Below, in pieces: positions 14,879 to 16,651 of a stretch of DNA of 56,544 nt. This stretch comes from Chitinophaga pinensis (GTDB lineage Bacteria > Bacteroidota > Bacteroidia > Chitinophagales > UBA10324): NCBI GenBank assembly GCA_945903305.1, contig CAMDOA010000012.1:1-56544 (forward strand). The letters are read 5' to 3'. Under the pieces are notes generated by a model. The model worked only from the letters and a program-made list of their open reading frames with translations. It was not told the origin of the DNA and made no database searches. The translations under genes and the position numbers were made by a program. Numbering within the stretch: position 1 is the first letter of the stretch; the number at the start of each line of letters is the position of its first letter.

Positions 14879-16651
14879 TCAGAAATCGGCTTCGAGTTTT
14901 AAATCATCTCGCAACTGTTTGAGTTTCGGGTTTTTTTTAACCATGTGATCAAACTTTTCTGATGGTGTGTATGGTCGTTTTTTGTTATCGGCTTTAGCGC
15001 GTTCAGTATCCACTCTTACTGTGAGCTCAATCACTTTTTTCTGTAATTGCTGCTGTAAAAAAGCAACCATCAATTCCTGTTCATCCAATAATAATTGCTT
15101 GTGGCTTTGAGTGCCAACCACAATTAAAACGGTTCGTTTATTTTCTAAAACCGGGGGATAAATTTTCAGTATTTCTGAAACTGAAAAATTTCGTTCGGCT
15201 TGTAATTTTTCCAGGTACTTGCTGAAAGCATATTTTAATTTCTCTTCATCCAGCTCTTCGCCTATAATTTTTTCAGCAGCTTTTCCATTTACAATTTCCG
15301 GTTTCTCATTCTCAACTGTTGCTTTTAAATCATTCAGCGTTGGTATTTTAAAACCTGAGCCAGAAGTTGCACCTGTGTAAGTAGGTTTTACTGATGCTGA
15401 AGTTGAAGATGCAGGAGGTGATTTATATTTCTCTTCTTTTTCAGTTAAAATAGTTGGTGAAGAAATTGGTTTTGAAATTTCTACCTTCTTTATAATTGCG
15501 GACTCAGTTTTTTTTTTACTCTCCGAAATTTCCTCTCCTGATTGAACAAATTTCACAGTGCGAAACAGGTAGCACAATTTCATCATTGCCAGTTCCACAC
15601 ACAATCTTTTATTCCGACTGGTACGGTATTGTATTTCGGCATCATTGATAATATTCAACCCATTTAATAAAAATGAAACCGGTGTGTAAGCTGATTGTTC
15701 AGCATAACGATTTCGCAGGTTGGCCGAAGCTTCAAGTAATTGTAAAGTTTCCTTGTCCTTACTCACTAATAAACTGCGAAGGTGTGATGCTAATCCGCTA
15801 AGAAAATTATCGCCTTCAAATCCGTTGGCTAAAATTTCATTGAAAGTGAGAAGGCAATCTCTAATACTTTCCTGCAAAAAATAATCAGTGAAGCGAAAAA
15901 AGTAATCGTAATCAAGAATATTCAGATTGGTGAGAACGGACTGATATGTAATATTCCCTCCCGTGAAAACACTGATGCGGTCGAACATACTGAGTGCATC
16001 GCGCAATGCTCCATCCGATTTTTGAGCGATGATGTGGAGAGCATCAGCTTCGGTTTTTATTTCTTCCTTCTTCGCAATGTTGGCTAAATAATCGGCTGTG
16101 TCTTCAGTTCTTATTCTGTTGAAATCAAAAATCTGACAACGGGATAAAATGGTCGGAATGATTTTGTGTTTCTCAGTAGTTGCCAGAATAAAAATGGCGT
16201 AAGGCGGTGGTTCTTCCAATGTTTTCAGAAAAGCATTGAATGCCTGGTTAGAAAGCATGTGAACCTCATCAATGATGTAGATTTTTTTCTTACCTGTTTG
16301 CGGTGCATATCGAACCTGCTCAATCAGCGCGCGGATATCTTCTACACTGTTATTCGATGCAGCATCCAGTTCATGCACATTGAAAGTTGCATTGTGATTA
16401 AATGATTTACAACTCTCACATTCGTTACATGCTTCAATGTCTTTCGAAATATTTTCGCAGTTAATAACTTTAGCCAGAATTCTCGCGCAGGTTGTTTTGC
16501 CAACTCCTCGCGGACCGCAAAACAAAAATGCCTGCGCCAACTGATTACTGCGGATTGCATTCTTAAGCGTTAGTGATACCTGCGGCTGACCAATAACATC
16601 TTCGAACCTTGCTGGTCTGTACTTGCGCGCCGATACAATGAAATTCTCCAT
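14879..16651 (-). CDS. dnaX: DNA polymerase III subunit tau (and possibly gamma)
   Basis: This 590-residue clamp-loader ATPase has Walker A GPRGVGKT at 46-53, the zinc-binding cysteines 65, 75, 78 and 81, and DEVHML as Walker B. Domain III ends near residue 370, then a linker rich in Lys/Ser/Pro leads to a C-terminal part (about 480-590) that in tau contacts polymerase and helicase. At codons 379-381 there is a run of ten A (bases 15508-15517). One extra A, or a -1 shift, gives a stop one codon after the three lysines; one A less gives a stop after about five further codons. A short gamma form of about 382-386 residues is thus possible. Confidence 0.95.
   Translation of the reverse strand: MENFIVSARKYRPARFEDVIGQPQVSLTLKNAIRSNQLAQAFLFCGPRGVGKTTCARILAKVINCENISKDIEACNECESCKSFNHNATFNVHELDAASNNSVEDIRALIEQVRYAPQTGKKKIYIIDEVHMLSNQAFNAFLKTLEEPPPYAIFILATTEKHKIIPTILSRCQIFDFNRIRTEDTADYLANIAKKEEIKTEADALHIIAQKSDGALRDALSMFDRISVFTGGNITYQSVLTNLNILDYDYFFRFTDYFLQESIRDCLLTFNEILANGFEGDNFLSGLASHLRSLLVSKDKETLQLLEASANLRNRYAEQSAYTPVSFLLNGLNIINDAEIQYRTSRNKRLCVELAMMKLCYLFRTVKFVQSGEEISESKKKTESAIIKKVEISKPISSPTILTEKEEKYKSPPASSTSASVKPTYTGATSGSGFKIPTLNDLKATVENEKPEIVNGKAAEKIIGEELDEEKLKYAFSKYLEKLQAERNFSVSEILKIYPPVLENKRTVLIVVGTQSHKQLLLDEQELMVAFLQQQLQKKVIELTVRVDTERAKADNKKRPYTPSEKFDHMVKKNPKLKQLRDDLKLEADF
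15508..15517 (-). promoter_or_regulatory. A10 slippery tract in dnaX
   Basis: On the coding strand the sequence is AGT, then ten A, then CTGAGTCC. Normal reading is Ser-Lys-Lys-Lys-Thr. A -1 ribosomal shift or an extra A gives Asn then TGA. Loss of one A gives Leu-Ser-Pro-Gln-Leu then TAA. The site is just past the ATPase/collar core, where a gamma product would end. Confidence 0.6.

Follow-up and report, generated by a model that had tools for sequence, protein, structure and literature searches.

The dnaX gene in a 56,544-nucleotide stretch of Chitinophaga pinensis DNA (assembly GCA_945903305.1, contig CAMDOA010000012.1, positions 1 to 56,544; the whole stretch is denoted the window) contains a run of ten A that probably acts as a programmed slip site. 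Slippage of the RNA polymerase on this run would allow one gene to encode two products, the tau subunit and the shorter gamma subunit. Judged from the sequence and its relatives, we assign this reading a probability of about three in four. It is based on the run itself, two stop codons close behind it, the conservation of the run as a nucleotide feature in changing codon phase, the closure of both alternative frames, and the occurrence of tau in all three frames among related genes.

The A10 tract in dnaX of the window

A sequence-only reading of the window had placed a ten-A slip site at codon 379 of dnaX, just past the clamp-loader core, in an open reading frame (ORF) that yields a 590-residue tau; it had further read one extra A as giving Asn and TGA, and one A less as giving TAA after five codons. 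Each of these points is borne out by the sequence and by an alignment to E. coli gamma and tau (residues 4-358), which locates the run about 20 codons downstream of the core (Table 1). T10 on the forward strand corresponds to A10 in the dnaX sense strand, with the codon context AGT AAA AAA AAA ACT at the start of the run. One additional A results in AAA AAA AAA AAC TGA, that is, Asn and a stop 0 codons past the run; one A less results in CTG AGT CCG CAA TTA TAA, a stop 5 codons past the run. Tau lies in frame 0 and is encoded by a single ORF, not by the two-ORF arrangement of the GeneTack type, and an in-frame UAG after the core is not present.

In the proposed mechanism, RNA polymerase would slip on A10 and produce dnaX mRNAs with varying numbers of A. 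Messages with 10 (or 10+3n) A would be translated into tau, those with other A counts would meet an immediate stop and yield gamma, the clamp loader without the tau-only tail.

Table 1. Features of dnaX in the window (positions on the forward strand).
Feature	Position	Strand	Basis
dnaX, tau (590 amino acids)	14879..16651	-	PRK14971 and TIGR02397 matches
Clamp-loader core common to gamma and tau, about codons 1-362	15566..16651	-	residues 4-358 align to E. coli chains
A10, probable slip site, codons 379-382	15508..15517	-	read directly; conserved in relatives
TGA, putative gamma end (382 amino acids) after one extra A or -1 shift	15504..15506	-	read directly
TAA, putative gamma end (386 amino acids) after one A less or two more	15490..15492	-	read directly
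Tau-only C-terminal part, 208 codons past the run	14879..15507	-	

Runs of A8 are about half as common in the window as expected (26 observed, 52 expected from dinucleotide shuffles), in line with selection against slippery runs. In the whole genome (3.12 Mb), A10 has 30 overlapping matches on both strands, corresponding to 20 separate runs by count. The run in dnaX is judged to be beyond chance because it is conserved in relatives, which is the decisive evidence.

Conservation of the run across Bacteroidota

To describe this conservation, dnaX loci were collected by protein homology, never by the presence of a run. The sources are 57 of the 60 genomes of a set of relatives (the window's own included), 80 named GTDB contigs and 296 genomes of the phylum, the latter contributing 24 new loci, another 42 rows within the same class and 38 from other classes. 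For classes other than Bacteroidia, one to three loci per family (38 in all) were selected by hand from the listed rows, with a bias to better-scoring genomes. The total is 241 loci, 240 of them distinct; L079 duplicates L052 and is retained in the core and linker counts (241 loci) and in the frame-closure counts. A thinned subset consists of 82 loci with less than 75% identity. A core tree of 240 loci was computed with FastTree, leaving out L054, which is too short.

The sequence-only reading had suggested as a check that a run of at least nine A should be kept in related Bacteroidota. A run of A9 to A13 is found in 197 of the 240 distinct loci, at -1 to +38 codons from the end of domain III (A10 in 142, A9 in 36, A11 in 15, A12 in 3 and A13 in one). 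It is present in 181 of 202 loci of Bacteroidia, in 16 of the 38 picked loci of other classes, and in all 15 loci of the window's own family; the 16th genome of this family (G012) gave no dnaX match. Stretches of nine or more A number 196 in the linkers (36,045 bases in all), against none in the cores (241,155 bases) and 3 in the sequence downstream of the linkers (94,445 bases). Fewest changes on the core tree amount to 16 for run presence and 20 for the frame of tau.

The run might instead be kept for a patch of lysines, or be a chance feature of an A-rich linker; it encodes lysines in every phase, and charged linkers are common. However, the run is pure A, although 29% of the Lys codons in the cores are AAG (71% AAA), and it begins in codon phase 0, 1 and 2 in 40, 86 and 71 loci, respectively. 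The neighbouring residues therefore differ while the run persists. Together with the absence of any such run from 241 kb of core, the immediate closure of both other frames, and the T9 and UAG designs near the same place in relatives (see below), this makes a lysine patch or chance highly improbable. As the sole cause it is refuted by the changes of phase and frame.

Closure of the alternative frames and the frame of tau

For 93% of 196 loci, the frame entered through one extra A (-1 relative to tau) meets a stop no more than 6 codons on, as compared to 43% in controls taken 60-345 nucleotides further on. For the frame entered through one A less (+1 relative to tau), the values are 89% and 37%. 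The thinned loci behave in the same way (94% and 88%, respectively). Both frames are closed within 6 codons in 163 of 195 loci, versus 15% in controls. This favours slippage because ribosomal -1 shifting needs only the -1 frame to be closed.

Relative to gamma, tau is in frame 0 in 136 of the 197 run-bearing loci, in -1 in 54 and in +1 in 5, with 2 undecided. Hence 59 loci are two-ORF genes, whose tau is reachable only by a change of frame; efficient slipping is therefore implied. Parsimony mapping, with loss coded, results in 16 changes from 0 to -1 (one of them, L091, doubtful), 3 changes from 0 to +1, and 11 losses and 5 gains in frame 0. L091 is scored as -1 although frame 0 remains open there over 157 codons. 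The +1 origins are L026/L027/L034 (three genomes of one clade) and the single genomes L059 and L181. Several two-ORF genes, namely L180, L189, L203 and L209, are located on single-contig genomes, and clades with as many as 17 loci are uniform in the state of the tau frame; an assembly error is therefore unlikely for the -1 genes. According to PMC5009743, one base can reverse the roles of gamma and tau when efficiency is near 50%, a remark that the free flipping of roles between frames fits.

Sister species one A apart (A11 in L058 and L060, A12 in L059) could also indicate a tract that mutates at the DNA level, with insertions and deletions switching dnaX between tau and gamma. Against such phase variation, the large clades just mentioned hold one state, and a cell with gamma only would be without tau, which is expected to be needed. 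We regard this explanation, too, as having very little chance of being correct.

Transcriptional slippage or ribosomal frameshifting

From the pattern described above we infer that slippage occurs in the cell, that it occurs during transcription, and that both products are used. The main competitor is ribosomal -1 frameshifting on A_AAA_AAA, which would produce gamma as in E. coli with the aid of a Shine-Dalgarno (SD)-like GGAG found close upstream of the run in the window. A-rich slip codons, the TGA directly in the -1 frame and the prevalence of -1 among two-ORF genes agree with it, as do an excess of SD-like tetramers and the single tRNA-Lys described below. Nonetheless, closure extends to the +1 frame (89% versus 37%), and tau lies in +1 in 5 loci with 3 mapped origins, which a -1 shift cannot serve. 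The run is followed by C, with no AAG at its end.

Likewise, a downstream hairpin of the E. coli type, which the sequence-only reading had not seen in the window either, is not seen on folding (z -0.31, nothing beyond shuffles), and a conserved hairpin is absent across 196 loci (mean z -0.42 and -0.48, controls -0.31 and -0.21). Rfam contains a family for the dnaX frameshift element; no match to it was obtained in the gene at E up to 10, in a search run without positive control, and a scan of the window with Rfam returned nothing relevant. The window taken alone is compatible with both mechanisms. With the relatives included, ribosomal -1 frameshifting is considered unlikely, though clearly less so than the two explanations discussed above, and the ribosome may have a part in the process. 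The earlier view that transcriptional slippage is the closer parallel is strengthened by the closure of both alternative frames and by tau in all three.

We note that several observations weigh against transcriptional slippage as a conserved device. SD-like tetramers are found at -18 to -4 upstream of the run in 35 of 196 loci (controls 7-18), within 14 nucleotides in 80 of 195 loci (controls 5-24), and in 20 of the 82 thinned loci, including the window (controls 1-11); this excess hints at help by the ribosome. One tRNA-Lys (UUU) was found among 31 of the 33 tRNA matches of the window's genome, and PMC5009743 links slippage in Thermus with two tRNAs-Lys. The run is missing at the site in 43 of 240 loci, at least two of these (L032 and L141) being truncated shortly past domain III and L246 being a weak, GC-rich call. 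Parsimony requires 36 steps with a root without the run and 38 with it; the ancestral state is left open, and therefore no single origin is claimed. The -1 state is far commoner than +1 even with the doubtful L091 set aside, and of the three +1 origins L026/L027/L034 is the only one backed by several genomes; L059 is one A away from its sister loci, possibly an assembly slip. Finally, the T9 clade described below counts for slippage, yet a U run can be slippery for ribosomes as well.

Apparent replacement of the run in a family of Bacteroidales

Many losses of the run fall in Bacteroidales. In the family to which G349 belongs (isolate RUG539, the genome with L126), 61 genomes were searched, 59 of them with a match, and 53 loci were classed, leaving out L276, L305 and L317 (too short), L304 (no usable row), G371 and G403. 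An A run is retained in 17 loci, with tau in frame 0 in 5 and in -1 in 12. Four loci (L278, L282, L286, L288) have T9 right after the core, with stops in the other frames 3 and 4 codons downstream. Eight loci have an in-frame UAG, treated in the next section.

A further five loci of one clade have CCC followed by AGG, AGT or TCG; in L265, L266, L267 and L269 the +1 frame closes within a few codons, and in L271 tau is in +1. Tentatively, this is a +1 shift site. L268, of the same clade, has the same site plus A10, and L300 shows a pattern match only and was not counted with these five. The remainder comprises one other two-ORF gene and 17 loci with nothing recognised. On a tree of the family loci, the further UAG loci and eight outgroups, the fewest class changes are 11, one of them owed to L300.

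Two further patterns were seen in dnaX genes. In L120, which has no A run, tau is in the +1 frame and is preceded by GCT AGG C. The related genes L307 and L309-L313 share a GGGGGAG stretch after domain III, and in L309 tau is in -1, with a stop just past this stretch, a possible -1 shift site.

dnaX genes with an in-frame UAG

All 33 loci checked in the UAG class have a TAG 4-12 codons after domain III, behind which the same frame is open for 190-260 codons. The frame following UAG matches the tau profile in the first ten loci and in 17 of 17 further correctly oriented loci (two of which repeat genomes of the first ten). The three residues after TAG are Ile-Ala-Arg in 33 of 33 loci and their codons vary at third positions only (ATT/ATA, GCA/GCT/GCC, AGA/AGG), as expected if this part is translated. 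On these sequence grounds we read the class as programmed UAG readthrough, in which gamma would be produced by termination and tau by readthrough.

A small hairpin after TAG may drive the readthrough. Its three pairs were picked by eye on the first ten sequences and form in 30 of 30 cells of those same sequences, with both sides changed in 10 (covariation 0.881 versus 0.270 shuffled, 0/500). On 33 sequences, in an alignment fitted to the model, 99 of 99 cells pair (score 0.616 versus 0.161). Against the element, the ten sequences are not specially stable when folded alone (z between -2.58 and +0.70, below -2 in two of them), and for some an alternative fold is preferred.

The covariance model matches 107 of the 190 family genomes, once each, at E up to 1e-5; 33 of these were checked in dnaX and the other 74 are model matches. 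In a search of 393 genomes of the order, strong scores are confined to G349 and G354; weaker matches outside the family (best 8e-5) were taken as chance. Rfam gave nothing at gathering score in six UAG loci.

Other explanations of the UAG class were considered. TAG as a reassigned sense codon is unlikely: it ends 6 of the 33 tau frames and therefore works as a stop there. A suppressor tRNA was not found in G349, none of 41 tRNA matches having CUA, though the model or the assembly may have missed one. Bypassing, known for example from T4 gene 60, is not suggested either, as 10 of 33 loci repeat in frame, within 20 codons, the codon that precedes TAG, compared to a control mean of 13.6.

Relation to known dnaX systems

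Taken by itself, the site in the window is a good example of a device known from Thermus and from some published two-ORF dnaX genes with A10. In Thermus thermophilus, transcriptional slippage on A9 makes gamma (PMC1088944, PMC5009743). As in that gene, the window has at least nine A in the sense strand past the clamp-loader core, tau in one ORF and stops close behind in both non-tau frames (0 and 5 codons). By these accounts the Thermus A9 is located about seven-eighths through the gene and gamma arises from slipped mRNAs, whereas the run in the window, a probable slip site, is A10 at codon 379 of 590. The Thermus type is further characterised by mRNAs with varying numbers of A and by gamma and tau in a ratio near 1:1.

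The GeneTack survey (PMC3711429) describes 17 two-ORF dnaX genes, all -1 and nine with A10, and proposes a transcriptional cause. They share with the present genes A10 and a tau reached via a change of frame; here the run is found in 197 of 240 loci with tau in three frames, and some of the nine may be among these loci. The E. coli gene uses a -1 programmed ribosomal frameshift (PMC1088944, PMC5009743). The logic of the products is the same, with gamma ending directly after the shift, but E. coli has A_AAA_AAG, an SD sequence and a hairpin, and the window has neither AAG nor hairpin. In Caulobacter, the same end product is obtained without recoding, by proteolysis of tau (PMC5009743).

The wider pattern, a device kept and apparently exchanged across a phylum, would be the surprise for a specialist. 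On balance, we favour the view that tau and gamma are under steady selection in Bacteroidota and that recoding devices are exchangeable near the same spot: slippage on runs of A (A9-A13) or T (T9), a +1 shift at sites resembling CCC_AGG_C, and UAG readthrough with a small structured RNA element. Among the literature matches listed, as far as titles and the opening lines of abstracts show, and with supplements and the majority of subscription articles left aside, nothing was found on phylum-wide conservation of the dnaX run with frame flips, on readthrough of a dnaX stop, or on replacement by T9, +1 or UAG devices.

According to PMC5009743, there is considerable controversy over whether gamma matters, and the review PMC3290774 states that a dnaX frameshift signature is lacking in most other bacteria, which may produce no gamma. 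A run kept in most sampled loci, while the frame of tau shifts and the device is apparently swapped, would indicate that both products are needed in these organisms. The many natural two-ORF genes, in which tau depends on a change of frame, make the efficiency directly measurable, and gene callers may flag such genes as broken. The UAG class is a candidate for programmed readthrough of a UAG codon in bacteria; if true, it would concern a core gene in more than half of the family genomes (107 of 190 by model match).

Further observations

A group of dnaX loci from the G291 family and from Bacteroidaceae-like records (L379-L406, L151, L154, L088, L089, L111 and L124), has no A9 near the core, except for L388 (A11). 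A GC hairpin of four base pairs is located 21-39 nucleotides past domain III, in most cases GGGC-loop-GCCC (loops include UUCG and GCAA); divergent stems are GGGG/CCCC in L380 and GGCC-UUCG-GGUC in L395. With L397 removed as a copy of L111, a GC hairpin of any such kind is present in 30 of 32 loci, versus 3-8 of 32 when any of six control windows is examined. Almost all of these loci have an open tau frame.

Elsewhere in the genome of the window, ARAGORN predicts, inside a tRNA cluster, a tRNA whose anticodon has four bases (gaaa) (L448:1987-2064, G000:C69:9621-9697).
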